From contig JAGTJL010000005.1 in assembly GCA_020746875.1 (NCBI GenBank), positions 248,001 to 312,000 of the forward strand: a stretch of 64,000 nt of DNA, in the 5' to 3' direction. A program made the position numbers and the translations under genes. Source of the DNA: Rhexocercosporidium sp. MPI-PUGE-AT-0058. Its lineage: Eukaryota; Ascomycota; Leotiomycetes; Helotiales. Positions 1,293-38,204 of the stretch are shown here, in pieces. Within the stretch, counting starts at the first letter, position 1. Every line of letters begins with the position of its first letter. The notes beneath the pieces are model-generated. The model made no database searches. It was not told the origin of the DNA and saw only the letters and a list, made by a program, of their open reading frames with translations.

Positions 1293-4146
1293 TCATTCCT
1301 CAGCAGCGTGTCTTCGATCCGCATCTCGCAGGAATGAATCAAGACCTGCCGAAGAAACATTGTTTGCCTTCAATTTTCTACAGAGTCTCTTCACCTGCGT
1401 GTATAAACCGGGTTTTAACTTCTGTACGTCAGTTTTACGAAGAACCTCGTCCATGAATTGTCGAGCCAGCTGATATAACGATGCGTCTTGAACCCACGAC
1501 TTCTCGTCTGCAAAGGGGTGCAGGATGCAGAAACAGAGTGGTTGGTCTATGTACGTGTCACTGCAGGTAGAGTTTCCCGTGAAATCTACTGGTGTCTCTC
1601 CCCTCAACGATCCCAGAGAGAGGAGGAAGAAAGCGCTTTCCAGTAGCTTAAAGGCGCTCGCCCGCATGCATCTTACGCTGCCTTGGGCGAGGTTGGCAAC
1701 TAGTCTGGGACCAAGTCTCAGATTCCACTTTTCCGTGTCCGCAAATGGGTCGATGCAATGTTTCAGGTATAGCAGACCCGAAGCGCGCAATGCGTTGTTG
1801 AACAGCCAAGTGTTGCGGAGGCCTTGCCTATGCTTTACTCTTAGGTCACTTTCCGGTCGCTCGGGGCCAGTGATTCCCTCTGCTTCTAATGTAAAGTTCA
1901 TCTCATCTAACCACTCCATGCTTTGAAGAGCATCGTTGTCGCCTGTGCTGCTGATTAGAGATGATCTAAAGCGAGGTTGAAGATAAGCTTACATGATTTC
2001 TCATAAAGGTCCGAGTATTGGAACGCACGTCTCGCAAGCCCTTCAAACTCACTCAATTTTCTGTATTCCCGAGGCATGAGTTTGGCTTCAGCAATCGTGG
2101 CTTGGCAAAGATAGCGCGGTGCACTAAATTGTCTCCTTACACGACTTGCCAGCATCTTCTGGACGTATTCGCTTTGTATGAAGTCTTTGGCAGACCGGTG
2201 GACAAACTCGATGTACCAGCCGTTGGCAAGTCCATCCTTCTTGAACATGACTAGATCGCGACAACGAGCACGCACCCGACGCTCGGCCAACTCGCAACGG
2301 CCCGTAATTTGGTCCAGTCCGAGGCGCCGCGCAGGTTGAAGTTTTGTGCCAAACAAGAAGTCTTCTTCGTCGAAGAACGATGCTGAAATCAATCGTAAGT
2401 GCGCTGCGGGATGTGCCTGACATGCTTGCAGTATCTCTGCTGACTGTACATGGTACACCTCCTCAACGGAATTCAGCATTTTCAGGAAGAAATCATCGAG
2501 CTTCTTGGGAAGTGCTTGGATTCGTCGCATGAGATCTTTGACCGTATCCCCTTCAATGAAGCCTCTTTTGAGGGACTGTACCACGAGATACACCCATAAG
2601 AACACACCTTCGGCCTCGTCGACAATCAGATTAATCACGTCATTGTACGTGCTATTCTCTTGTCGTAGAATAGCGAATCGCCGGTCCTGCTCAAGCTTGG
2701 ACTGTGTAAAGTTTCGAATGTCCGCCTTCGTCAGATCTTCGAGACGAATCATCGGGCGCCCTTTAAACCAGTCTTGGAAAACATTCCAGTCCCGACTAGC
2801 TAGACAGAGCTTGATCTTTGGGTTCCTCGCCAAATCTTCAAGTATGTCGAGGACTTCTTCGTGGTCGCCCTCATACTCATCGAGTCCATCCACGAAGAAG
2901 CAGACGCGGAGGTCTAGCTGAGTTTGAGCTTTGATCTTAGAGAAGCATTCACTCAGTTCGGATATCGTCCAGGGAGCCCTGTTCTGCACTGCAGCGTTCA
3001 AGCGGTCGATTGAGATGGCGATTTCGGCAAGTTTTGGACACTTGCTCAGCAGATCGCTGAGCAAAGATTGAAGAAGACCAGCCAACGACCTTTGCATGGC
3101 GGTTCCAGCAGCCCAGAAAAAGTGGCTCGCCCGGATCATCTCGTGTTGTCCGGCCCATGCCTGCAGAATCTGTTCTGTTCTTTTTTCCATACACACATAT
3201 TTCATGAACGTCGACTTGCCAGACCCCGGCTTCCCAGTCACCCAGAATATGCCGCTTCCGGAACGTAGCCATTCTCCTAAGCTAGGAATTTTGACGTCCG
3301 AAGCAGTATTGTCGTGGAACGCCCAGTCAAAAGTCGTGGAATGTGCTGACTCGACGGCAGCCCAACGAGCTGAGATACTCTCAAAAGATAGACTGTTGAT
3401 TGTCTTCAAGAGAGAAGTGGTATGCCTCCACTCTCCGGCGAGCTCGTGGATCCCCACCATCAACTCAGCAAAATCTGCTTTCGATGGAGCAAGTGAAAGC
3501 TGTTCCATCGCTGAAGCCATCGCACTCTCCAAATTGTCCGTACTCATCTTGATCATACGATCCGAACGCCATCTATCTTCAGATTGCTGCCGGAGAATAT
3601 CGAACATCTCGCGCTGGTGCTCGCTGGCAGTGTTAGATAACAGGAAGAGGTCAACGTCAATAACACATACCTAATTAGAGAAACCATCCTAGCAGTCATC
3701 TCGGATCTGAGATCGTCCAAAGTCCGCTCATATCTCGCAACATCCTCAGATTTTAGAAGGATCTTGATTGAAGCAAGACCGCTTTTGAACATTTTATGCT
3801 TATCACTCTTGACTTTGAGTTTCTGTAGTGCTTGGATCAAGTCGTCTGCCAGCTGCTTACAACGCAGAGCAAGCTTGCAAAGAGCTTCTTGGTGTACCGA
3901 TGGGGCACTCCCGGAGAGATGTACAGCAGCGGCACCGGTGTTGAGAGTCAGGGTCCTGATATCATGCGACAGCTTCCCACTCAACTCAGAGAGATCTATA
4001 GCCACACTTTCCACATCTGCATAGTCTTTGGACGCGCCATCAGCCGAGCCGTAAATACTGACTGCTCCTGAGATGATCTTCCCGCTGAAATCAATGACGG
4101 AGAGCACATTACTCGCCACTCCCAGAGCCGTGAGAGGGTCAAGCAT
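1293..4146 (-). CDS. NACHT-domain NTPase with fungal STAND-type N-terminus (NLR-like)
   Basis: Three exons: 4146-3671, 3623-1993 and 1942-1293, with introns of 47 and 50 nt. The joined CDS is 2757 nt, 918 aa. Residues 1-~160 form a helical N-terminus beginning MLDPLTALGVASNVLSVIDF, the style that precedes NACHT domains in many ascomycete NLR-like proteins. Walker A is GKPGSGKST at ~289-297 and Walker B is FFVDGLDEYE at ~401-410, so the NTPase looks intact. The region after NACHT resembles the helical part of fungal HET-E-like proteins. The last ~270 residues show no WD40, ankyrin or TPR repeats, so no classical ligand sensor is visible. The known role of the family is nucleotide-driven oligomerisation in heterokaryon incompatibility or immunity-like cell death. 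Whether this copy does so is inference. The second intron uses a CACAG acceptor after CTAATC; without it the frame breaks. Confidence 0.85.
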
Positions 4147-4805
4147 GTCGTAAGTAAGGCTGAAGCTTGCCTCCTACCGTACAGCGTCCTCACAACTTTG
4201 GAAAGGGCGAGCCTCTTCGTCTCCAGATTCTACACCCCTTGATGATATGGAAGAGCTTGGCAAAGGAAAGAGCAGTTTCCGGGGAGTATTCCGAATTCCT
4301 AAATTGATCCGAAAATTCAATTGAAGACGGAGGTCACCTTGTTGTTAGAGAAGGCTGAGGTGAGGAAGTCTGAGGTTTGAGGGCTCAGTTGGGATTACGT
4401 AAGTTCGAGTGTTGGACAACGCAAGAAAGCCACGCTGAAAGCCTGGAAGGCTGAGCGAGCATCACACGGCCATTGCCCTGACATTTTCCTAAACTTCAAC
4501 CTACAAGGTATCACATGCGTTGGCTCAAAAAATTCTGGTAATGTAACAGCAGAGGTAGGAAAGACGACTACTAGCCCCTAAAAACTTGACGCCCATGGGT
4601 TGGTAAGGGGCTGGACAGAAGGTCTATGTATTATACATTCTGTATGTTCTCTTATTCTATATTTGAGTCCTATACTATGTCGCATGGGATCTGTTTGTGG
4701 TATCCGTCAAGGCTTTTCTAGTGAACCTTTTGGTCTTCATCGTATCCGTATCCAAAGCCACCCCTCAAAACTCCCGCTAAATCTCAAATATCCCTCTCTT
4801 CTCGT
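4147..4805. other. intergenic between NACHT gene start and MscS gene end
   Basis: Upstream region of the NACHT gene and 3' flank of the MscS gene, both on the minus strand. A plus-strand open frame at 4600-4902 overlaps the MscS C-terminus and looks like a shadow. No RNA gene or repeat is seen. Confidence 0.5.
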
Positions 4806-7800
4806 CTATCTCTTCTTGTACTGCTCAGTAAAGGCCCTCCTTGGCTGCCCAGCCATCGGCAAGTCCCCTCTCTCAATAGCACTATCCCTTTGCACCGCTT
4901 GAGGACTAACAATGCCCGTCCTAGGATCAATCCTCCCCGCACTCTGACTCCTCATGTCCTCATGCCAACTCGCAGAGTTACTTCCGCTAGCTTCAGGAAT
5001 ATCAGGTAGATCATCCTTGCCAAACTCTCTTGTCCCAGCTTCGAGATCTTCAAGACGCGTTCCTTCTTCAGCCGTACCGAGCTTGGAGCGGTTACGCGAG
5101 AAGAAGCGGTTGCGGTGCGTCTTGGTGCTGCCGCCGTTGCTGAATTGCGAGTCTCGAGTGCTGGTGCGCTCCATGATGTCTTCGCTCTCGCGTCGATCTC
5201 GGCTCGAGCGGCCTGGGGCCGGAGATGAAGAAGTCGTCGTTATACGTGGAGGTGGGACGAACGGCTTGCGGTCTTCATAAACATCGCCAAAGTCTGCACC
5301 GGAAGAGATAGCAGACATGCCAAGAGAGAAGTCGACACGCTTGCCCATTTGGCCGATCGATTCGCCGCGCTGCCGAGAGATGGACTCGCCTCTGTTGCGG
5401 AGTATGGAAGGGTGCGAGCGAGCCGGTTGCTGCGGTGCTGTGATGTCGATTGGTGTTTCGCGGGCGAGGGAGCCGGAGCGTGGACCTGGGCCATCGGACG
5501 GTGGTTGCGAGTCGGGTGCGCTCGATTGGCGCGGGTAGGCATCGTGGAGATGCATTGGGAAGTTCTGAGTTGCTCCTGCGAGACGCATGCGTGGACCTTC
5601 GATACCAAGCTCGTTCATTGTGACCATCATTGCGCAGATGAATTTGTTGCGGCGCTGGAGACGGAGAAGTTCGTTTTGCCAATTGGATTTGTAGAAGAAG
5701 ACTACGTTGAGAGTGATAGAGTGGCATTCGTAGACAGTTCGGAGTTCAGTCAGGATATTCTTCTGGTATTCGCGGTTTTCCGAGGTAACGAATTCCAGGA
5801 GGCGTTCGCGAAGAGCGTCGATTTGATCCAGGGTAGTGCCGAACTTGACAGTTACGGGAACAGCTTCTGCAAGACCCCCTGAACGACGCTGATTGAGGAT
5901 GAAGAGAGTGTTTAGGTAACTATTGGGTGCTTGAACGACGTGGCCTTCCATCTTTTTGAACTCAGTGTACAGAAGTGCAATTTCTTTAACAAAGTAGTCA
6001 TCTCCTTTCATCTCGGATCCCGTGTTGCCGTATATGGTGACTCGGTCTCCGACATCAAAAGGATGCTTGACGAAGACAAAAATGACCGACTGAAGAAATT
6101 CCTGGGCAGTGGCTGAGAACAACCAAGAAAGAGCTAGAAGTGTTGACCCAGCTGAAGTCAAAACTCCGGATGCTGAAGTAGAGATCAAGGAAATGAAGAC
6201 AAGGATGGTAATGACAGCGACAATGAACATGAACACATCATCGAGCTTCGATACGACTGAGTCGAGGTCTTTGAGAGACGCGGTAATAGCTTTGCGTTCC
6301 CGACCTATCTCGACACAGACGGCTTCTAATTCCTCCATGGAGATATCACCGTTGAGATCTTTGTCAAACATGGAGAAGGCAGCAGTGGCTTCCTCATCGT
6401 TATCAAATGCAGGGCGAAGATCGTCAGCAAGTGCTGTCTCAGAATCTTGTTGTGCAAATGTACGATACAAGCGACGGGCCAGTACTTGAGAGCCGTTGGT
6501 GCTGTTCAATAGTTGAAGGACACTGAGTACGTTAGTAGATGTAATTGGGTAGGACAGGGAATGCTTACACTTGATGAGGGTGGGTAGAAGCTTTGACGGC
6601 CTGTCCAGTGAAATCTCCAGCTACCTTCCCTGCTACATCGCCAACCTTGTTGAAGACTTGGCGAGCATTCTTCTGTGCTTTATTGACAATTTGCATCGGG
6701 GTTCTTGTTCCAGATGAGGGCCCAGTATTGTTAAGCTCGAATTCAGAATCCTCCATTGCAATCTTTTCCTTCGAATAGACATATAATTTGACCAAACTTG
6801 AGATTTGAAATTTGTTGACCTCAATTCGATCGGCATAGGTCCGGAGGTGGAAACTGATGGCGATGAGCTGAATGATGATCTTCTCGACAAAATTCAAAGT
6901 CAATCCGACGAAGATGGAAATGATGATTTTGTTGACCGTGTTCTCCCATGGCCGGGTACCTTTGTTTCCATCATGGTGGTGGTTCTTCATCGTTGGCAGA
7001 AAGGAGATCTCGACTGCCAGACCCCAGAAGAAAAGAGTGGCCGGCACCTCGAGTGCCTTTCCCAAGTCCCTCCATTTCTTGCTGTTGTTCGTGAACAGAC
7101 TGGAGATCAGACCCATCGGGTATGGCAGACATTTTGCAATGATCTAGATAATATGAGTTAGCAGGTGTGGAAAGGACAACAGAATAGGAACTACTTACTC
7201 TCCCAAGCCAAAGTGTCAACCAGACAATCTCGAGCCAAATTCCAAACCAAAAGAGCTCAACATCTCCAACTGTGGAGTCTTCGAAAAGGAATAGGCCAAA
7301 TAGAGTTGGGATCAACAACAGTAGGGTAAGGGGCGTAATGTAGAAGAACCATCGGACCAAGAAAATCGAGTTGTGGATGCTCTTGAATACCTTAGCGATC
7401 TTCGTGGTAGGATGCGCTGGAGGTTTGTATATTTTGGTCTTCTCGTGTAGTGGGGTAGTATCGATATCGAAATCATCTACTGGTTCGGCGGCAGTTCGAG
7501 ATCTCGACCTTGCCATTGACTTTGACCTCCCAATACTATCATCGTTTGTCTTCTCCGCACTCGAAACCACTCGTTCGGCCCGCAGCATTTCCAAGTCATC
7601 GTCGAGTCGGCGTGACTGCTCTCTTTGTTGCGACAAGGACATTGGTGATCTATTCTCCCTGTCGAGAAAGTCCGGTCCATCAACATAGCTTGTCGTCACT
7701 CGCAGATGGTTGCCATATATCTCGTCGTTTTCTTGGCCCTGCAGAGTTCCATCCTCATCAGAGGAGCGTCTGTCGTTTATCTGGTTGTTGTGGATGGTTG

Positions 7801-9990: not shown

Positions 9991-12148
9991 ATGGATTCCC
10001 TCTCTCTCACTCTAACTATCGGACCGGTCATCCTCAAGGCAGCAACTCTAGCGAAGCAATGTCGCGATATCCATGCCAAAGACACATCGCCGCCAGATTC
10101 TCTGGCTTCAGTTGCCGAAGAATGTACCCAGGTCCATCGCTTGCTAGAAGGCTTCCAAGATCTTAGTAGGCAAGACTCATCTCACGCGGGGGCCGAGACG
10201 ACAAAGAATATCAACCATGCGATTGGAACTGTACAGAAATGTTATCTTGAGATTCTCACGTCCATAGAGGAACATGTCGAAGCACTCGAGCAATCGATAG
10301 AACAGAGAGTAGATAGGGATCCCCACCTTGCGTTGAGGGTGATACAGGATGTCGGTTGGAAAGAAGGGGAAGTGTGGAAAATCCTCGATGAGTCTGAACA
10401 GCAAAGAGAATCCTTCAAGTCACTTTTAAAGGAGTTACAACTGTCAGCAATTCTTTTCTTTCCAATGTCTGTTTACTAAGCCATCATCAGGTCTCTTCAA
10501 CCCAAAGATTTTCATGTCCAACTCCAAGATGATCAAGTAGCCCCAATCCCGACTATCACAGAACCTCCAATCACTCAGGATTCGCAACTAGACAACAGCC
10601 GCTTCAGCATCGACAGTACTGCCACCCATGACTTCGCAATAAATCCAAGTCGCTTCAGCGCCAACAGTCTCTCCAGTCTCCTGTCAGCCACCCCATTTGA
10701 TTTCGACACCGAAGCCCTCTCCTCTCCCAGCTACCGCCAAGCGTTTGGCGAACGAGTCCGCAACATCATCTCTCGGCCTCTACACTCTCCAGGCGATGCA
10801 GCTCTTCTCCGCGCTGTAGAACCTCTCGAGAACGAAGAGCACTACTATGAGCAAAGCGTCGAGATTGAATGGGACCCTAGCATATCAGGGAGTACAATAC
10901 GATCCGACGACACGGGATCAAGTCGATCAAGTCTTAGGACTTTGGATAGTCAGGTGACTCTCTCGGGAACATTGATGACCAGACGACAGCAGATTGGACA
11001 TCCAGTCAATCCAGTACATGTCACGCATATTGGACTTGATCCCATTACGGGGGAATTTACGGGTTTGCCTGCTGAGTGGAGGAAGATTCTGTTGGCTGAA
11101 GATGAGAGGGCTAGAGCTGCTGCTAATCTCACGGCATCTGCAGAGACTTCGAAAAGCGAGAAGTCGACAACGATCAAGTTAGCTTCCTCCTCTCATGTCC
11201 TGCAAGAAGTCTCGCTAATTTAGGCTAGACTAGTGGTAGTGGGCGATTCGGGGAAGCTCAAACAATGTCTCCTTATTACCTACGTGACGAACAAGTACCC
11301 GTCCGAATATGTGCCGCAAGTGTTTGACAACTATGCCGTTACTATCATGTATGCACCTCTCTTCTCCACATTCATTCATAACATCTCCACTCCTTCCGAT
11401 TCCCATCCCATTTAAATTTCTATTTTGCTAACAGGATCCCAACCAGGGTTGGCGACAAGCCATATACCCTCGGTATCTTCGATGTAAGCTGCTGCCTTCT
11501 CTACAATCTAGTATTATCATATCCTAATCTGCAAATCTCGTACCACCTAACCATCGCCCATCTACCCACTTCCTTGTACAGCATGATGCACCAACGCAAC
11601 ACTTACTAATGCCATCCCCAGACAACAGGCCAGGAATCCTACGACCGCCTCCGCCCCCTTTCTTACCCCCTGACGGACGTATTCATGATAATAATCTCCA
11701 CATCCATACCCTCGCACTACACCTCCGCACGAGATACCTGGGCGCCCGAACTCAAGCACCACTGTCCTGGCGTACCCTTTCTACTCGTCGGAATCCAAGA
11801 CCCTCCCGACGCTGCGGTGGACACGGCTTCGAAGAAGAAGGCGCGTGTGGATTACGGTAGGAAACTTGCGATGGATATTGGGGCGGAGAAGTATGTGGAG
11901 TGTGAGTTGGAGAGTGGGAAGGGGGTGAAGAATGTTTTTGATGAGGTCTGTGACTTTATTTTCGTTTCTCTGGTGGATCCTCTTCTTGGTGTTGTTCGTT
12001 GGCGGAATTGTGCAGGATTATTTTGGCTCTTGGTTTATGTTTCTGACTCTTGATACAGGCTATCGTCGCGGCTCTCGAGCCCGTTGTAGTCCCGAAGAAG
12101 AGAAGGAGGTCGAGGCTGAAGTTATTGTCCAGGATCGAAGAGGACTAA
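9991..12148 (+). CDS. CRIB domain fused to degenerate Cdc42/Rho-like GTPase, with NLR-like N-terminus
   Basis: Six exons: 9991-10442, 10491-11177, 11229-11348, 11435-11483, 11622-11945 and 12059-12148. CDS 1722 nt, 573 aa. Residues 1-~150 are helical and start [20 protein letters not shown], like N-termini of fungal STAND proteins. A Ser/Asp-rich linker follows. A CRIB/PBD motif lies at ~319-350 ([14 protein letters not shown] then [10 protein letters not shown]), with the I, P, H, H and G of the consensus kept. From K380 the protein is collinear with Cdc42 ([34 protein letters not shown]). The nucleotide site is altered: P-loop reads GDSGKLKQC instead of GDGAVGKTC, switch-I Thr35 is Gln, the TQID guanine motif is IQDP, and the SAL motif is CELES. 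There is no CAAX box; the tail is polybasic KKRRRSRLK. Effector and GTPase modules in one chain suggest a self-binding or decoy device, which is inference. Introns before the P-loop and in the GTPase part place Cdc42-like sequence in frame. Confidence 0.85.
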
Positions 12149-12884: not shown

Positions 12885-13916
12885 ATGTTCTCCCTCCCTA
12901 TCCTTCTCGCCAGTACCTTCTTACCAGCCCTCGCTAGCAGCGCCAAGTTCTGCGAATCAACAGATCTGAACTTGACAGTGACTGAATCACTTTGGGATGG
13001 GTATGATGCCTTTTCCCCTTTTCCCCTTCATCTCACACCCCGCCTTTGACTTCAGCATGCCTAGTTCTGATATTCTAAACCAGGCAATGCACATATCCCA
13101 AAGCGGATAGGAGCTTCGAACTTAATCAGTATCTCGGCCGTTGGTACCAGGTCGCCGGTACTCGCGCGCCGTTTACTGCGAGGGGTTCTTGTATTTATGC
13201 CGAGTATGGATTGAACGTACGAACTGTCTTCCTGGCCTTAAACATCCATCTATCCTCAGTATTCGATCCGGAGTTGCTCGAATTTTGAACTCCTGGTTTT
13301 GATTTACTTTCTCGAGGACTAACACATAAGCCCATGTAGGATAACGGGACAGTCTCCGTCTCAAACGGCTGCCAGCTTGGAAACCGCAGCATAACCATCC
13401 AAGGCACAGCGGACGCAGCCGACGAGATATATGGTTCCGATGGTGTGTTCAGGGTGCAGTTCCCTGGCCGGCCTGGGCATTTCTGCCCAGGGCCGAATTA
13501 CATCGTGCAGCGTGAGTTCTCTTACCTCTTCCTACCTCTTCCTGCCTTTTAAATACAATTGAAGTCATTTGCATGGGGTGAGTGAAAAGGTATGTGTAAG
13601 TGGAGATGAGGAAAGGGGGGATAGGAAGATGGAGACAAGGCTGACAGTGGTGATGATGCAGAACGTTCTGAAGACTGGGCTATTGTGCAAGCGTCTAATT
13701 TCTCGACTCTATTTTTGTTGAGTAGGGAGCAGAATCCGGGGGAGGGGAGCATTATGGTATGTTGATTTTCATTTTATGGAATTCGCGAAGGGGGGAGATG
13801 ATGAAGGAAGAGTTAGCTAACAAGGGATATAGGGCTGGTTGGTGAGCGCGGGGAAGTTGGGGAGTGATTTAACGGATGTTATTAGGACGAATCAGACAGG
13901 GCGTTTATTTACGTAA
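12885..13916 (+). CDS. secreted lipocalin (apolipoprotein D / Blc-like)
   Basis: Five small exons: 12885-13000, 13084-13216, 13340-13511, 13662-13756 and 13833-13916. They total 600 nt, 199 aa, all junctions in phase. The first ~20 residues (MFSLPILLASTFLPALASSA) are a typical signal peptide. The lipocalin signature G-x-W appears in YLGRWYQVAG (~55-64). The later strands GRPGHFCPGPNYIVQ and DWAIVQASNFSTLFLLSRE correspond to the conserved region 2/3 part of the fold. Six or more cysteines after the signal suggest disulfides. The family binds small hydrophobic ligands in a beta-barrel; the ligand here is unknown. No single exon shows the fold, so the gene is easy to miss. It lies 0.7 kb downstream of the CRIB/pseudo-GTPase gene on the same strand, but nothing shows a functional link. 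Confidence 0.85.
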
Positions 13917-14554
13917 GGAGAACATGGAAGATAGGGGATTCATGAGCTTGAAGACAACTGAATTGGGCACGTAAGAAGCTATAATGTTGAGACCGAGGAA
14001 GCCAAGGAAGTGAAAGGGATTTGCCCCACATAAGAAGCGAATGTTGATTCAATCTTCAACACATGTCCTCGGCTTTCCTCAAGAGAAATGCGATCGCGTT
14101 CAAACGGCGATTCTACAATTCCCTTGTGGCTTAGCTCGCAGTTGTTACTCATTTCCAAAACAATGCTTCGAGGAACAATTCAATCACAGGTATTGTGACT
14201 GTGACTTGAGTGACCACCCTCGAAAATTGCGTGCTCCTCCACTAGTTTTGCATGCTTCGCTAAGGTCTTGAGTACCCATCACAAATTCCCCAATTTGTCT
14301 GGCTGTGTATTGCTTTAGGAACAGGCGATCATTTTCAGCTGTTTTGCCCCATTCTTATCGAAGGAGACGAGGATTTCGAATGCAAGAGTGGGATGGTCTG
14401 AGTTGCACTTCATGCCAAAAGCTATATCTTGTCGAGTCACGCAATTTGTTACTCCTAAACTTGTCATCTTCCTCATATATGTCACTCGACTTCTTTGGTC
14501 CTTGTCCTTCCCTTCTGAGAGTCCTGAGATCTAAGAAACGATCTTCTGTCCACG
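13917..14554. other. intergenic
   Basis: 3' flank of the lipocalin gene and promoter of the monooxygenase gene. Short open frames at 14041-14271 and 14305-14775 show no domain; the second overlaps the monooxygenase first exon in another frame. Confidence 0.45.
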
Positions 14555-16453: not shown

Positions 16454-17913
16454 TCAAGGACATTTGTCGTGCGTGCGGGGGCGTAGCACATCAGCGTACT
16501 CCGGATCGGATTCCGCGCTCCAGGGAATGGTTGTGCTGTCTGCGTCTGGAGACCATTTAGCTCCAGCGGGGCAATAGTTCGCAAATATTTCCTTGTAATA
16601 TTGGGATATGCGGTACCAATCTTTGAGGGAGAACTCAGCTCCTGCTGCGAGGAGCAATTTGACTGATTTTACATGTCTTTCGGAGTACAAAGAGCCCCAG
16701 ATAATACTGCGAGACAATGGTGTATCCCCTGTAGAAGTCTTTGGATGGACTTGCGCATTGGCTTTGAGTAGCAGTCTAATTATATCTATCTCACATCTTT
16801 GTGAGGCCGAGCGTAGTGGTGTGCTACCACTCAAGTCCGTTAAATTGACATCCGCGCCACTGTCGAGCAGCAGCTTTACAACAACAATGTGCCCCCAAAA
16901 GGAGGCCAGGTTCAGGGGTGAGGATCCAGAATTTGACAGAGTGTCAAAATTAGCTCCGCTCGCAAGCAACTGAATTGTTACGCCAACATGTCCTTGTATG
17001 GCAGCATAGTGGAACGGAGTGTACCCCAAGTGATTGGTGGCATGAAAATCTGCTTTATTCCGAATGAGTATCTTTACAAAAGATTCGTCGCCGCCAACTG
17101 CAGCAATATGCAATGTGGTGTCGCCATCGCTATCCGACTTGGTAATGTCCACTCCACAATGTATCAAGTGCTCGATACCTTCGTATTGCCCCTGCTTCGC
17201 AGCATCCTGAAGGGAAACTACATTGGGGTCCGCTCCAGAATCAATCAACTTTTTGACAATTTCGTATCTTTTCTCCCAAAACATGAGACTTAGAGCCGTG
17301 TTATTGTAGTTGTCTGCTTTATTGACATCGACGCCAGATTGAAGTAGAGTCTCAACGATAGCATCATGTCCTTTCTTGAGAGCCAGGTGGAGCGCGGTTG
17401 ACCCAGCCGAGTCTTTGGCAGATACTCGTGCACCCGCGTCCTCCGTGAGGAAATGTTCCACTTCAATCTTGTCTCCTCGACTGACGCATTCTAGAAACCG
17501 AAGATCTTGCTCATCTTTCAATAGCCGCTGCTTTTCCACAAGCGATAACTGGTTGTCGAAGGTCAAGGTTCTGATATGCTGAGGGTCTTCATCAACTCCA
17601 TGATATTCTCTCAGGTGTGCCAACAAATAATTCTGCGACAAAGTCCTACGCAAGCTGCACTGAGAGTACGGGCATTCGTAGGAGGCCCGCGAAGAGCGGT
17701 GGGTTTCTCTGTGTCGCTTCAAACCCGTTTTGAGGCTGAATGCTTTACCGCAAATGGCACATGGGTATGGCCTATCGTGCGTTTGGCGGTGTTTGCTACG
17801 TAGATAGTCGTTAGCATCATAAATTGTCGTTCTGAAGCTCGGTCTCACTTGTAGAGATATTTCTTTTGAAAGGGTTTCCCGCAGTCCGAACATTTGGCTG
17901 TGTAAGATTCCAT
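16454..17913 (-). CDS. C2H2 zinc-finger protein with C-terminal ankyrin repeats
   Basis: Two exons, 17913-17849 and 17795-16454, split by a 53-nt intron with branch TGCTAAC; CDS 1407 nt, 468 aa. I chose the ATG at 17913 because splicing then completes a perfect first finger (C8-x2-C11-x12-H24-x3-H28). Unspliced reading of the large frame loses it. Finger 2 is CAICGKAFSLKTGLKRHRETH-type with C-x2-C and H-x3-H. Finger 3 has a longer C-x4-C spacing. From ~150 to ~420 there are about seven to eight ankyrin repeats (AGSTALHLALKKGHD, GDTTLHIAAVGGDE, LGYTPFHYAAIQGH, GSSPLNLASFWGH, GSTPLRSASQRCE). The combination suggests a nucleic-acid-binding protein with a protein-interaction tail, common in Leotiomycetes and Sordariomycetes with unknown function. 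It is divergent to another C2H2 gene with a 390-bp shared upstream region. Confidence 0.88.
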
Positions 17914-18303
17914 TTTCACAAATGGTGGTCCATGTGAGTGATGGCAGCGGAATGATTCGCCTCGAAGGCAAAATATCAATTGGGGACAGCGGTATTAAAA
18001 ATGTTCACTTCCATAGAGAAAGCGCTGGCAGCATGGTGGCTTGGATGTGAGCTTGCTGTTGGTTGTCGTACAGTAAGCGAGGGCGTCGTCGGGCGTCGGG
18101 CGTCGGGCGTCGGGCGTGCTTACTGTTCTGTCAAAATGAATCTGAGATAATTCTCAACCACCTTCTGCTGCAAACATCGCGATTACCAGGCCGGTATCCC
18201 CAGCCAGCGAGAGACCATCTCAATACGTCCATTTCACCAACAACGATAACTCCCACAACGATCACGAAGACGGTATTCTACACCTTTTGAAAGCCTCTTC
18301 AGT
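17914..18303. promoter_or_regulatory. bidirectional promoter of two divergent C2H2 genes
   Basis: 390 bp between the two start codons. It contains a tandem array of the 7-mer GTCGGGC (about four copies near 18087-18118). Everything regulating either gene from upstream must lie here or overlap the neighbour. The array could bind a factor or be a simple repeat. Confidence 0.5.
18087..18118. repeat. GTCGGGC tandem repeat
   Basis: About four consecutive copies of GTCGGGC (also readable as GGGCGTC) between the divergent C2H2 genes. It is read directly from the sequence. Confidence 0.85.
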
Positions 18304-27911: not shown

Positions 27912-28740
27912 TTTGCTTTTTACGAGCGCCGAAGGGTAAGTGAAAATGTAAGTTCATAAGGAGTAGTATGTTTCAAATGGAGTGTGCAAAGGTAGTCTAC
28001 GACTTTTGGGGAAGTTTGATGTCTTTATATATCCATTGCTACGCAACTGAGGTAAGAGGACTGTCAATCGCAGAGAAGTCTCCGTTCAGCTCACTGTCTA
28101 GAGGGCACCCACCCAATGCAGTCTTCTCAAACAGCCTGAACCTTACTAAAAGATACTGTCTTTGTTGGCGAGCGGAGAGCGAGAGCGGGACTCTGATCCA
28201 CGGCCGAACGGAGGCGAGAAACCATGACCGTGAACCTACCCCTTCTTAATCCTACCCAATCGATGGTCAAGTTAGACTTCATTCCTCGAATACTGTACAA
28301 ACCACGAGTAATATGGATCGATGAGTATCGATCCAAGTTCAAACAGTCAATACCTATAATCCCCACCTTAGCCTTGCCACCAGTTGACTAGAAACAAAGT
28401 CCGCATAATCTACTTTTCCTCCTTCCCACACTAGCTCAGAGCCTCCCGAGTAAACAAAGATCTCGGTTGAGTCAACAAGCAAAAGGGGGGAGATTGATCG
28501 GCATGGCCCCACAGCCGAGCCCCTTTCTAGTCTGCACCCGCACGGACTTTCCACTTCCGACGCGACTTCTTTGGAAACCGAAATGTTGCAGACCAGGTAT
28601 CCGATCCAACTCAATACCATCCAAATCCTTCTGGCAGATATCCTCACTCCCCCCAATTGCCAATGCTCTCGACGACAGCCCTCAATCCAGTCTCAGCATT
28701 CTGATCGCGAACTGTGGCCAGCACATCCCCACACGACACA
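27912..28740. promoter_or_regulatory. divergent promoter region, MDR gene and ELMO gene
   Basis: 829 bp between the two start codons. No gene or repeat is seen; open frames here (27968-28249, 28127-28656) run antisense to each other without family motifs. The 5' part near 28670-28740 is C-rich, as in many fungal 5' leaders. Confidence 0.45.
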
Positions 28741-30921
28741 ATGGATCAAGCAGACATCCCCGCCCTCCTCTCACGCCTCTCCAGCGATGAAGATGCTATG
28801 CGCAAGATGGCAGTCTTCAAGCTGCAATCCTCGATCAACGATCCCGCCTTCGCAGACGTGTTCATCTCCTCTGGCGGCCTCAACATCCTCCGCCGCCTTA
28901 TCATGTCTACCGGTGGAAACACCCTCGCATATTCCCTTCAATCGCTGAGCCGGCTACTCGAAGTCGATATGGGCTGGGAGATATTTGAATCTACAGGAGC
29001 AGGGGAATTGGTGGAGAGGGTAGTCGAGCTCATTGTGGTACATCCTTTAGTTAATATTCTGCGAGGGGCAATGTCGATCCTGGTGGCTATCGTGTCCCAT
29101 CCGCAGTCGTCAAGAGGGGCTATAAGGACACCTGGAGCATTTGGATTTCGAGCTCTGAAGCCTGCGGTAGCAGTATATCCTCAATTCTTTGAGATGGTAG
29201 TGTCCCAGCTCAATTCGGCGGATCATGCACTATGCGCCAATGCGTTGATGCTGCTCAACGCGCTGATGAGAGATGCCATTACGAACGACAGCGGCAATCC
29301 AAAAGACGGCGTCGGAAAGAGCAGCGGGACAGGAGAGGAATGGCCGAAGTTCATAAAGAGGTTACAGGATCTGGGAGTTATCAAGGCGGTCTACGTCCTG
29401 ATGCAGAGCTCTGCGCTGCAAGATTTGGCACATCCGTTGCTGGAATTCCAAGCCTTGACGAAAGTTCTGCTGAGGAAATGGAGGGATGTGAAAGTTGATT
29501 TGGAAAGACCAGAACACCGACGGGCTTTGAAAGGGTTACATTTGGCCAGTGCGCCTGAGCGAAAAGATCTCATTTCAAATGGAGGAACGTCGAGGATAGA
29601 AGAGATGGCAGCAGATTCATCGAAGAAGGGGAGCAGGCGGCACAATCCAGAAAAATGGCGAAGATTAGGTTTTGAAACAGAGAGCCCTGCATGGGAATTC
29701 GATACGGCTGGATTTTTAGGCATGATGGATTTGACGGACTATGTGCGAAAACAGGAAGATGGGTTTCAAAAGCTACTTCTGGAACAGTCCTCCCGGCCGA
29801 TGAACGAACGTTGCCCGATTGCACGGGCTAGTCTAGCCATCACCACGATTCTGTATGAACATTTCGAGGTCGACAAGTCGGACGTCGAGGATGCAAAGAG
29901 TTATCTGGTATTGGATGGGATGAAGAATTACGACAAAATATTCCGCCCGCTCCTATTACAATGGTCACGACTGCATACTGCGAGTTTACAAGCGTTTTTC
30001 AGATTATGGAAATCCACTGGTGCCGAGCAGGAAGATTTTGACAAGGTGGCAGAGCTGGTCAGGATATTGATTGAACAAGTTGTTGGGCAGGCTTCGAGGA
30101 CGAAGGACGTTCAGGAAGTGGAGGAAGAGCTCGGTGAATTTGAATACGCACGCCTACGGGAGCTGCAAATGGAGCTACTTGAATTGACATTCGAGGATGA
30201 ATGGGGTCAGCACTTACATCAAGTTCGAGATGAGCTCAAGCACGAAGCCCTGCAGTTTGTTAAGGAACAGAGAATACGATGTCTCTTGTCTGGGGCTTGG
30301 TTTCCTAGATCCCTTGTAAACAAGAACGACACCTATCGTAATGGCACCCAGAGGACATCGTCGACCACATACAGATATGTTCGACTTTCACATAACCGCC
30401 GATATCTTCATTATGCAGACTTTGACGCTCAGACAACCAAAGAGCCCCCCTTGGATGAACTTAGTGAGAAGATAGACCTAAGCACAATCAGCTCTGTCGT
30501 TTCGAATGTCTCTGCAGCAACAGATGATAGCTCGAGCATCTCGACGACCTCAACACTCAAATCGCTCTCCCACACACCAAAACAAAGCTCAACAACCAAG
30601 ATCACCATCAACAGCTTTGTTGGTGGTTCAGACAGCAAGTCGCAGTCTTCTCATCAGGATGGTACTGAACGGGCCATCTTAACTCTGATGCCACCAACCC
30701 ACAGCCTCGCATCAGAGTGGCTTGATGGTCTTCTAATGCTGTTGAACCAAGCACCAATTACTGCCGAGACGAACAAGTTAGTCAACCTGGTCAGCGAATA
30801 TGGCCTTAAGATTCGCCTTTTGAATGTCCGATTGGATGATGGGTATGTAGGACCTCCAGAAGGCGCTGGCGTCGTTCCCAGTAGAGAGGGCTTGGATGAG
30901 GATTATTATTACGAAGTGTAG
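28741..30921 (+). CDS. ELMO/CED-12 family protein (Lmo1-like)
   Basis: Single exon, 2181 nt, 726 aa from the ATG at 28741 (MDQADIPALLSRLSSDEDA). The first ~300 residues are armadillo-like helical repeats. The ELMO domain lies around residues 350-470 (RASLAITTILYEHF, FRPLLLQWSRLH, SLQAFFRLWKS). A PH-like domain follows (RCLLSGAWFPRSL, YRYVRLSHNRRYLHYADFD), with a long Ser/Thr-rich insertion at ~590-650, then a C-terminal helix. In animals and yeast (Lmo1) this protein pairs with a DOCK-type exchange factor (Dck1) to activate Rac/Rho GTPases in polarity, cell wall signalling and mitophagy. The role here follows from the family. No DOCK gene lies in the window. It is the second Rho-pathway protein in the window besides the fusion at 10 kb. 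Confidence 0.88.
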   Translation: MDQADIPALLSRLSSDEDAMRKMAVFKLQSSINDPAFADVFISSGGLNILRRLIMSTGGNTLAYSLQSLSRLLEVDMGWEIFESTGAGELVERVVELIVVHPLVNILRGAMSILVAIVSHPQSSRGAIRTPGAFGFRALKPAVAVYPQFFEMVVSQLNSADHALCANALMLLNALMRDAITNDSGNPKDGVGKSSGTGEEWPKFIKRLQDLGVIKAVYVLMQSSALQDLAHPLLEFQALTKVLLRKWRDVKVDLERPEHRRALKGLHLASAPERKDLISNGGTSRIEEMAADSSKKGSRRHNPEKWRRLGFETESPAWEFDTAGFLGMMDLTDYVRKQEDGFQKLLLEQSSRPMNERCPIARASLAITTILYEHFEVDKSDVEDAKSYLVLDGMKNYDKIFRPLLLQWSRLHTASLQAFFRLWKSTGAEQEDFDKVAELVRILIEQVVGQASRTKDVQEVEEELGEFEYARLRELQMELLELTFEDEWGQHLHQVRDELKHEALQFVKEQRIRCLLSGAWFPRSLVNKNDTYRNGTQRTSSTTYRYVRLSHNRRYLHYADFDAQTTKEPPLDELSEKIDLSTISSVVSNVSAATDDSSSISTTSTLKSLSHTPKQSSTTKITINSFVGGSDSKSQSSHQDGTERAILTLMPPTHSLASEWLDGLLMLLNQAPITAETNKLVNLVSEYGLKIRLLNVRLDDGYVGPPEGAGVVPSREGLDEDYYYEV

Positions 30922-36072: not shown

Positions 36073-37845
36073 CTACTTCACAGCAAAAGTTCGTATTTCA
36101 CATTCGGTATTTTTTTCAGATAACATCTCCTGCCATCCTTCTCCATCCATAATTCCATGAACGTAAGATTCCCCAACCAAAGCCCAGTCGTCTTTTTCTC
36201 CTCTCAAGATGACGGGAAACTGAGCTCCTTTCAACAGGCATACCTTATCCCCAATATTCGTGGTATATGGTCCCAGCCCCATGTAACCTTTATCAGTGAA
36301 GAAAAGAACCCTTTGAACGGTAGAGTCACGAACTAATGGGTCCGGCCAGGCAAAAATTCCTAAATCATGATCATGATCAGGGACTGGAACAGAGGCAAGT
36401 CGTTTCCCGAGAAGAGAATGCACCTGAGGGTCATCACTAAAGCATGCGGCATCTGCGCATACTGTATGCGCTAAAGCCTCTTGACGTGTACATCCTGTAA
36501 TGTATTTGGACCAAGGCGCAAGGGCAGCAATCTGCCAGCTCAAAGCAATATCCTGGTCTCGTCCGGAGTTGTCGAAACGGGGAATTGCTAGCCAAGAAAC
36601 TCCGTCAAATTCAAATCCCGAAGCATATAAAATCCCATTATCTTCGTCAATGCTGCCATTGAATTCCGTGTTATTCGTTGCGTTATATAGAGTTGTAAGT
36701 CGTAGGGAGGCGTCGAGAGACCTGCGGAGGAACGGTTTCGGCATATACGTTGATGTCCAGTCCGGAACCCACGATGGTAAGCAAAAATCGCCGACGGTCG
36801 CACAAAACCCAAGTATATCTAACCTTCGGTCGCTCCGTATCAGGTTGCATGCTACGCGAAAGTAGACATCACGGGCATTTGCGTTGTAATCGGGAACTGT
36901 GGATGTAAGGCCTTTCTCAGGAAATAGGGACGACAGTCCAAAGATCTTGTCGCGGGAGTCGGTTGCGTCAAAGGTATGAACGTACGGCAGCAAGAAGTAA
37001 AGATCTATGATGTCGGAAGCAATATGATTTTGCCGCATCTTTCGTATAGAGATCAATCCCCGCAGAGCGTCTGTGGAGACATTGTGCAGCTTTCCGGGTA
37101 ATCCATCAATCATGCTAATCCGTGTAATCCAATCCGCTGATTTTGTGAATGTTTCAAAGTCGTCTGTATAAGAACCACACCAGACAAGCGAATGGCAGGG
37201 TTCTTTTGGTGTTGTTGCTTCTTGGATGATCCAAACTCTCGTCCAATAACTTCTAGAGATGAGTTTATGAGTAGCATGAATAGCCTTTTCTCGAAGCAAC
37301 TTCCATTCCTCTCCTGGCATGATGTCTGATGAGAACTTTGATGATTGATTTAGCGGTTTGCGCTCACGAAAATAATCAAAATCCAGGACATACTCCATTC
37401 CCAGTTTCGCATCATCGTCCAGTTTACCTAACCATGAAATTATGGTCTGCGCTCGCTCGTAGATGTTTTTCATCATGGCAACTTGAACGTTTTTTTCCAG
37501 GGTGTTTGATTGATCAATGCAGATAGCATCAATCCAAAGCCACCCACCGTTCCAACGCTTTTCATCCAGCTCATTTTTCGTTGATAGCGTTTCAATCCGA
37601 CGTTTCGCTTCCAATAGGAATGCCTCAAGATTTGGTGTTATGCGAAATACAGTTCCTTGAAGGTTGATGAGCTTAGATCTGGCCTCGCCACCCCAGGTAT
37701 AGGATAACGCAGTGAAATGCGGTGCCGACTTTAAGGTACAAACACCGAGCTTTAAGGATATATGTTCGGAAGGTCCAATTTCAAATTGCACAAGGCGAAT
37801 GGAGTCATCTGGTAAGGGGCTGTATACGAAACCCTCCGAGTTCAT
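36073..37845 (-). CDS. HET-domain protein (heterokaryon incompatibility type)
   Basis: Single exon, 1773 nt, 590 aa, ATG at 37845. The HET domain occupies ~40-200 with its three conserved blocks: FTALSYTWGG (~44-53), GGWLWIDAICIDQSNTLEKN-type block (WIDAICIDQ), and MMKNIYERAQTIISWLG. A helical C-terminus follows (DKIFGLSSLFPEKGL, DVYFRVACNLI), typical of stand-alone HET proteins. HET domains are TIR-like and trigger cell death when nonself partners meet. No second locus member such as a HeLo or NLR gene is adjacent, although the NACHT gene at 1.3-4.1 kb is in the same window. The frame is intact. It lies inside a pair of inverted repeats 2.7 kb apart. Confidence 0.92.
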   Translation of the reverse strand: MNSEGFVYSPLPDDSIRLVQFEIGPSEHISLKLGVCTLKSAPHFTALSYTWGGEARSKLINLQGTVFRITPNLEAFLLEAKRRIETLSTKNELDEKRWNGGWLWIDAICIDQSNTLEKNVQVAMMKNIYERAQTIISWLGKLDDDAKLGMEYVLDFDYFRERKPLNQSSKFSSDIMPGEEWKLLREKAIHATHKLISRSYWTRVWIIQEATTPKEPCHSLVWCGSYTDDFETFTKSADWITRISMIDGLPGKLHNVSTDALRGLISIRKMRQNHIASDIIDLYFLLPYVHTFDATDSRDKIFGLSSLFPEKGLTSTVPDYNANARDVYFRVACNLIRSDRRLDILGFCATVGDFCLPSWVPDWTSTYMPKPFLRRSLDASLRLTTLYNATNNTEFNGSIDEDNGILYASGFEFDGVSWLAIPRFDNSGRDQDIALSWQIAALAPWSKYITGCTRQEALAHTVCADAACFSDDPQVHSLLGKRLASVPVPDHDHDLGIFAWPDPLVRDSTVQRVLFFTDKGYMGLGPYTTNIGDKVCLLKGAQFPVILRGEKDDWALVGESYVHGIMDGEGWQEMLSEKNTECEIRTFAVK

Positions 37846-38204
37846 GTTTATGGAGTCGAGACCGCAATCACGCAGCTGCTTGAGAGGGGCAAGGCCGATT
37901 CAAAGGATAGAAATGAGGTGATTGAACGCTAGTATCGTAGGCTGCCGAGAACAGGTAGCAGGTTGTGATCGGGCTGTTGCGCGAGACGGGTCCCTTCTCT
38001 CAACCGCCAGGTGAAAAGTTGACCTATTCAAGATTGTTGGTGCTGTCGAATGGTACAGTAGGAAGAAGACAACTGTGGAGGATGCATTTCAGACCCAGAT
38101 TTCTAGAATGTTCTAAGAGGCCTGGAGCAATCCTCAGGCAGCAACATTAAACTCTCAGGTGATATAGCAGAAAACCCCCCAATGACTGGCAAGGTGAATT
38201 TATG

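Follow-up and report, generated by a model that had tools for sequence, protein, structure and literature searches.

A predicted fungal protein that joins a Ste20-like CRIB motif to a Cdc42-derived pseudoGTPase may contain a dummy version of the protein it targets

The window analyzed here, a 64,000-nucleotide stretch of the genome of the fungus Rhexocercosporidium sp. MPI-PUGE-AT-0058 (contig JAGTJL010000005.1), harbors a gene whose predicted product consists, in this order, of a PF17111-like helical bundle, a Ser-rich linker, a Ste20-like CRIB motif, and a domain derived from Cdc42, which we call pseudo-Cdc42. An earlier note on this DNA had placed a CRIB motif and a Cdc42-like domain in the same protein, and this is borne out: the Pfam PBD and Ras models match the product of a single spliced frame with 44.5 and 91 bits, respectively, scores that exclude chance. 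Judged by its motifs, the GTPase part is a pseudoGTPase, a point that the note had not made. These features raise the possibility that the protein locks or senses Cdc42 signaling by means of an internal mimic of the protein that it targets.

The gene model (9991-12148, forward strand) comprises six exons, with GT-AG introns throughout, spliced into one frame. The previous model had proposed a spliced frame of 573 amino acids with exons at 9991-10442, 10491-11177, 11229-11348, 11435-11483, 11622-11945, and 12059-12148; the six exons and their GT-AG introns stand, whereas the length does not. The difference arises at the 3' end of intron 3, where CTAAC is the sole branch-like site found within 60 nt. 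Of two acceptors, the one at 11434 is placed 1 nt past the branch-like A, whereas the one at 11446 lies 13 nt past it and restores the spacing of Cdc42. The four residues added by the acceptor at 11434 (IPTR) are absent at that place from the other seven Rho rows of our alignment. Because the acceptor at 11446 is better placed and its use removes the IPTR insertion, we prefer it, and the product is likely to be 569 amino acids in length.

Exon 1 (9991-10442) carries the start codon and the PF17111/Helo-like helical N-terminal domain (residues 1 to 150). Intron 1 (10443-10490) is 48 nt long and contains an in-frame TAA; a scan for branch sites gave no match in this intron, and a branch-like TTTACTAAG was spotted there by eye. 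Exon 2 (10491-11177) encodes the Ser-rich linker (16% Ser) and the CRIB motif. An SRFS repeat in the linker was examined as an amyloid-like motif and is not significant, as 84 of 1,000 shuffles match or exceed it. Intron 2 (11178-11228), at the K of TIK and in phase 2, joins the CRIB and GTPase exons. Exon 3 (11229-11348) encodes beta1, a degenerate P-loop (GDSGKLKQ, 11242-11265), and a switch segment; exon 4, at 11447-11483 with the preferred acceptor, encodes beta2 and beta3; exon 5 (11622-11945) retains a switch segment, has lost G4 (IQ and then a deletion), and has ELE in place of SAL at G5; and exon 6 (12059-12148) encodes alpha5 and a polybasic tail, KKRRRSRLK, with no CAAX box. Intron 3 occupies 11349-11446 and intron 5, between FDE and AI, 11946-12058. 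Intron 4 (11484-11621), between FD and T, is an extra intron that is absent from the model of the genome's cdc42.

That the fusion is an error of the gene model, with two neighboring genes or an assembly joint behind it, is highly improbable. The CRIB frame, without splicing of intron 2, stops at 11221-11223, and intron 2 coincides in position and phase with intron 1 of cdc42. The earlier note had named a GTPase-only gene with a start near 11229 as the finding that would speak against a fusion. We reject such a transcript because no start codon precedes the domain in the GTPase exons: upstream of exon 3, the unspliced frame is closed by a stop (11221) two residues away, and Met does not occur in the GTPase part until residue 420, within the domain. 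An alternative start could come only from an upstream exon, for example, at M313 ahead of the CRIB motif, and a shorter product beginning at M313 is conceivable. Retention of intron 2 (11178-11223) would bring in the stop at 11221-11223 and give a protein with the CRIB motif and without pseudo-Cdc42, a possible second isoform.

The Pfam Ras model matches residues 380 to 547 (91 bits against a cut-off of 21.6), and the Cdc42-derived domain spans residues 379 to 569 of the 569-residue product, in agreement with the Cdc42-like domain proposed before at 380 to 570. Cdc42 stands on top of the PDB matches (best E value, 5.8e-63), and the first Rac1 is found in row 37 of the best 60 of 673 matches. 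Spliced-alignment models were made of the genome's Cdc42 (80% identical to the human protein), Rac1, and four further Rho genes. Eight loci were modeled; L041 and L042 (Ras/Rab-like, 27 to 28% identity) were excluded from the Rho alignment, and L043 and L044 were not used. All three modeled introns of cdc42 (at K7, M47, and E173) recur in the window gene, at K380 (phase 2), M420 (phase 2), and E540 (phase 0), the shared sites following TIK, TVM (TIM in the window gene), and FDE. The chance of such agreement is about 1e-7 (four random sites among 570), and the modeled introns of Rac1 and the four other Rho genes lie at other positions. In a tree of eight rows, the pseudo-domain groups with the two Cdc42 proteins with a support of 99/97, and the nearer of the two is not resolved. 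Because all three cdc42 introns recur with unchanged position and phase, the GTPase part looks like a DNA-level duplicate of cdc42. An origin of the domain from Rac is rejected by the intron positions and by identity, which is 87/187 to Rac1 against 108/188 to Cdc42. A recent duplication is likewise unsupported, since the domain is at least as close in identity to human CDC42 (111/185) as to the Cdc42 of the fungus itself (about 58%, 108 to 109 of 188 positions). As the CRIB exon ends in TIK like exon 1 of cdc42, the joint between CRIB motif and GTPase probably lies within the first exon of cdc42, with loss of the start codon of the latter.

The domain had been read in the earlier note as a GTPase, and this part of the reading fails. 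The motifs of the nucleotide site are destroyed, with G1, the Thr of G2, the Asp of G4, and the SAL of G5 lost, and the mechanism must for this reason differ from that of a GTPase. In our motif and contact alignment, which was built on the 573-residue model, 17 of the 51 columns that do not vary among seven canonical Rho proteins (human CDC42 and six of the fungus itself) are changed in the window gene. These comprise G12S, G15L, T17Q, F28Y, T35Q, A59T, the deleted D118, L119, and R120, S158E, and the CAAX Cys, and in addition L55, F82, S89, N92, V93, and K96. T17 and T35 are ligands of Mg2+, and D118 is the residue that reads guanine. Columns kept in the pocket are G10, D11, K16, D57, T58, G60, and Q61, and those kept on the protein face are Y32, P34, V36, F37, N39, Y40, R66, L67, R68, L70, Y72, and F169.

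The losses are biased to the nucleotide pocket. Compared with the fungus's own Cdc42, 10/22 nucleotide positions are kept, against 16/19 CRIB-contact positions (Fisher's P = 0.02) and 73/127 of the remainder; when T35 is counted as a contact, the CRIB-contact face is kept at 16 of the 20 listed positions. Among hand-picked invariant columns, 8 of 14 nucleotide columns are lost against none of 12 on the protein face (P = 0.002). The true Rac1 gives the opposite order on the same lists, with 22/24 nucleotide positions and 12/20 CRIB positions kept. The list of CRIB contacts is our own compilation from passages of two papers (PMC5500802 and PMC9241073); "Tyr-24" of one source does not exist in human CDC42 (Y23, T24), and both positions were therefore counted. 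In switch II, 13 of the 15 positions from 62 to 76 are kept, D63 being Ser in the window gene, and F56 is also kept. The tail extends seven residues beyond the CAAX end and contains no Cys; the CAAX Cys column holds Arg in one alignment and Leu in another. From the lost motifs we predict that pseudo-Cdc42 should not bind GTP or Mg2+ in the usual way, and from the lost CAAX box that it cannot be prenylated, while the CRIB-binding and switch II faces are nearly intact.

This combination would also suit a protein that acts in trans, in which pseudo-Cdc42 holds a Rho GEF of the Cdc24 type through switch II and the CRIB motif holds Cdc42-GTP, so that polarity regulators are scaffolded or sequestered. 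The dominant negative T17N form of the GTPase sequesters its GEF. The window gene carries T17Q at this very site, where T17N lowers nucleotide affinity and gives a dominant negative, as stated in PMC3627919, and both the conserved switch II face with F56 and the absence of a CAAX box, hence of an ordinary membrane switch, would agree with such a trap or bridge. However, the P-loop is altered far past T17 (G12 and G15) and A59 is Thr, and a GEF may therefore fail to engage; in addition, the N-terminal domain is given no role. We consider this alternative somewhat unlikely.

The loss of a third of the invariant residues (17/51) could, on the other hand, point to a decaying or nonfunctional fusion whose motifs were lost through relaxed constraint. 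Comparison with the fungus's own cdc42 gives a pS of 0.76, which is saturated, and a dN of 0.37, and third codon positions are identical at 39%, first positions at 69%, and second positions at 72%. All of 300 neutral simulations run to this divergence acquired stops, and their identity never exceeded 0.378, against 0.58 observed. When neutral change was confined to one branch of at least 0.5 substitutions per site, again 0/300 copies were free of stops and identity was at most 44%, against 58% observed. A neutral branch of 0.25 per site does reach the observed identity (mean, 0.581) and leaves 4/300 copies free of stops, but we reject it because it is too short for saturated synonymous sites. 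The saturated synonymous sites together with the absence of stops show that the pseudo-domain, whose nucleotide site is now ruined, has been kept under selection during at least some of the time that it has existed. Decay is also disfavored by the five GT-AG introns, the intact CRIB motif, and the concentration of the losses in the nucleotide pocket, and we regard it as very unlikely.

The CRIB motif itself is clear. The earlier note had seen it at about residues 319 to 350, and the Pfam PBD model (PF00786) confirms it at residues 318 to 354 (10990-11100) with 44.5 bits against a cut-off of 21.3. The conserved residues of a CRIB motif are an Ile, a Pro, two His, and a Gly, and the Ile is followed by Ser. 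In comparison with the CRIBs of the genome's Ste20 and Cla4, the Ile, Pro, two His, and Gly are all present in the window gene, and the Ser after the Ile is replaced by Gly. Identity is 20/36 to the Ste20-like kinase of the genome and 18/36 to its Cla4-like kinase, and these two kinases and the window gene are the only three places in the genome (62.7 Mb, 60 contigs) that score above the CRIB cut-off. The inhibitory segment expected after the CRIB of a PAK matches at none of 21 residues against either PAK (ungapped), whereas Ste20 and Cla4 agree with each other at 10/21. We conclude that this is a Ste20-like motif predicted to bind Cdc42/Rac.

The N terminus had been described as a helical domain of the STAND type, a claim that the profile comparison supports and the Pfam cut-off does not: the protein has no match at an E value of 1 or below to the N-terminal families of NLRs in Pfam, including PF17111 (PigL_N). 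Our profile was made from 20 of the 30 PF17111 loci of the genome (10 short, C-terminal, or fragmentary ones were dropped) together with the NLR of the window, and it scores 24.4 bits against the N terminus, where the best of 500 shuffles reaches 11.0. Aligned by hhalign, the N terminus matches the PF17111 profile with 94% over 143 columns, and in pairwise comparison 8 of 21 member sequences reach a z value of at least 3. With the NLR row left out of the profile, the whole ORF scores 23.0 bits, the first 152 residues 20.3, and these residues in reversed order 7.0, and the best other ORF of the window (the window gene and the NLR excepted) scores 4.9. A single-sequence AlphaFold2 model has helices at residues 3 to 30, 35 to 59, and 65 to 107, with a mean pLDDT of 73 and a pTM of 0.62; the other four models of the N terminus have pLDDT values of 52.7 to 58.5. 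Fold comparison of the single-sequence model with two programs gave, among the best 50 matches of each, helical bundles of many kinds and no chain of HET-s, MLKL, or RPW8; as this does not speak against such a fold, we give preference to the profile comparison. The N terminus thus resembles the PF17111 (Helo-like) domains of the genome, with a modest profile match. PF17111 appears as Helo_like_N among the N-terminal domains of fungal NLRs in PMC9815663, where the related HeLo domains are described as pore-forming.

No NACHT or NB-ARC domain is found in the protein by Pfam at an E value of 1 or below, and no repeat domain was found in it either. Since the nucleotide-binding domain is absent, the protein is not an NLR. 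An NLR gene does lie in the window at 1296-4173 on the reverse strand, with NPHP3_N/NACHT and DUF7791 domains and a helical N terminus of its own that scores 42 bits on the PF17111 profile. The whole genome holds 158 NPHP3_N matches (each fragment of a split gene being counted) and 41 PF17111 matches, several with stops, and is thus NLR-rich. Its HET, NACHT, and PF17111 genes point to a filamentous ascomycete.

Several other genes of the window were noted. A small secreted lipocalin-like gene, assigned by eye, follows immediately downstream at 12886-13950 (forward strand). On the reverse strand are a frame for a mechanosensitive ion channel that also matches EF-hand weakly (4809-6620), a single frame with a C2H2 zinc-finger-like match and ankyrin repeats (16457-18004), and a HET-domain (heterokaryon incompatibility) gene (36076-37899; 90.5 bits). 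An ELMO/CED-12 gene, of the family of Rac GEF subunits, lies on the forward strand at 28705-30918, about 17 kb from the pseudo-Cdc42 gene.

The Helo-like N terminus, of a family present in fungal NLRs, raises a further alternative, an integrated decoy or guard. Pseudo-Cdc42, and perhaps the CRIB motif, would be the bait taken by foreign proteins directed against Rho GTPases, and modification or binding of the bait would free the helical domain and lead to cell death. Thr35 is a common target of Rho-modifying enzymes. In the window gene, however, this position is Gln, a bait has no need of a CRIB motif, and a protein without a nucleotide-binding domain is no NLR receptor. The NACHT-type NLR 6 kb away and the NPHP3_N matches of the genome are in line with a decoy, but the neighbor is weak evidence because NLR genes are so many in this genome. 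Fungal NLRs with a CHK-2-like kinase domain have been proposed as decoys (according to PMC12258605). On balance, we consider a decoy unlikely.

We consider plausible, if not quite probable, a different reading, in which pseudo-Cdc42, independently of nucleotide, stands in within the chain for the ligand of the CRIB motif and is displaced by true Cdc42-GTP or Rac-GTP. At rest, pseudo-Cdc42 would sit on the CRIB motif in cis through its kept beta2/alpha1/alpha5 face, without nucleotide and assisted by a tether of about 25 residues. Cdc42-GTP or Rac-GTP locks switch I via Thr35, which the stand-in cannot do, and the stand-in would be outcompeted; the chain would then open, and the N-terminal bundle would be free to oligomerize or to recruit a partner. 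Such a protein would report how active Cdc42/Rac is, and the dead copy would set the threshold in the manner of the pseudosubstrate of a kinase. The cis contact, its displacement by Cdc42/Rac-GTP, and the helical bundle as output are the parts of this scheme that we infer.

A lock in cis is favored by the largely kept contact face (16/19) and by the unmatched PAK inhibitory segment, and engineered CRIB-GTPase chains (Raichu) are reported to close in cis (PMC6035793). In the data given in PMC9241073, T35S alone weakens binding to PAK1 26-fold, from 20 to 520 nM, and D63 is described in PMC5500802 as lying close to a CRIB histidine in ACK. Because T35 and D63 are lost, the CRIB motif and pseudo-Cdc42 may touch only weakly or not at all. 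A stand-in that has to yield to the real ligand would be expected to lack T35, and so, equally, would a domain that makes no such contact. The earlier suggestion that the chain folds on itself is compatible with the kept CRIB-contact face (16/20 positions), but T35 and D63 are lost. As the trans, decoy, and cis readings share the same anatomy, sequence cannot separate them. We are more doubtful about the stand-in reading carried to its end, namely, a natural pseudo-ligand lock in which the dead Cdc42 copy shuts the CRIB motif and a rise or imbalance of Cdc42/Rac-GTP arms a Helo-like bundle for cell death or signaling. If true, the lock would be a natural counterpart of the Raichu sensor, wired to an immune-type output.

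The window gene is apparently single-copy, as no second protein of CRIB-GTPase build was found in its own genome (21 matches, 25 candidates scored). No relatives were found in viral contigs (3 pattern stretches) or prokaryote genomes (27 pattern stretches), as expected of a fungal gene. Among the literature matches listed, from open-licence papers and on several topics a small share of all matching papers, there was no natural CRIB-GTPase fusion, and none is mentioned in passages of a review on protozoan CRIB proteins (PMC8847673). Nor did the titles and abstract openings of the matches listed contain a fungal link between Cdc42/Rac polarity and the helical domains of non-self recognition. The protein, if it works as proposed, would connect Cdc42/Rac polarity signaling with the helical output domains that fungi use in non-self recognition. 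In plants, Rho-type GTPases are described as acting downstream of NLRs (PMC7565977).

Among known systems, pseudoGTPases are an accepted class, and those of class (i), such as pG1/pG2 of p190RhoGAP and CENP-M, are described in PMC5593906 as recognizable GTPase domains with degenerate G motifs. The window domain is alike in being a small-GTPase domain with lost nucleotide motifs (Ras, 91 bits) in a multidomain protein. It appears to differ from the examples given there in that it comes directly from cdc42, keeps its effector face, and shares its chain with the matching effector motif. Among the literature matches listed, the closest published lead appears to be Rho6 of Trichoderma, described in PMC8146680 as an atypical, Rho5-related protein with an N-terminal extension of about 130 amino acids and an altered G1. 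Compared by description only, both are atypical fungal Rho proteins with an N-terminal extension and a changed G1, but the extension here is about 378 residues, the kinship is with Cdc42 rather than Rho5, and the Lys of G1, lost in Rho6, is kept. The 111 Rho proteins of that survey span 151 to 338 amino acids, so that none is as long as the window protein, and the word CRIB is absent from the survey's text. Fungal NLR/STAND proteins with Helo_like_N (PF17111) resemble the window protein in their helical N terminus by profile and differ in the NACHT/NB-ARC and repeat domains, which were not found in it. Raichu biosensors likewise tether a CRIB motif and a Rho GTPase in one chain but are engineered and carry a live GTPase, whose contact with the CRIB is, as described, weak with GDP and closed with GTP, whereas the GTPase of the window protein is predicted to be dead. 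PAK-type effectors (Ste20 and Cla4) are alike in the CRIB motif and have a kinase domain and an inhibitory segment, in place of which the window protein has pseudo-Cdc42. In autoinhibited CRIB effectors such as PAK and WASP, the CRIB region is covered by another part of the same protein until Cdc42-GTP takes the place of that part. There, the covering part is a kinase or a VCA segment, whereas in the window protein it would be a copy of the ligand, and if a dead GTPase and its own effector motif do interact within one chain, the protein would offer a direct view of an internal mimic gating an effector.
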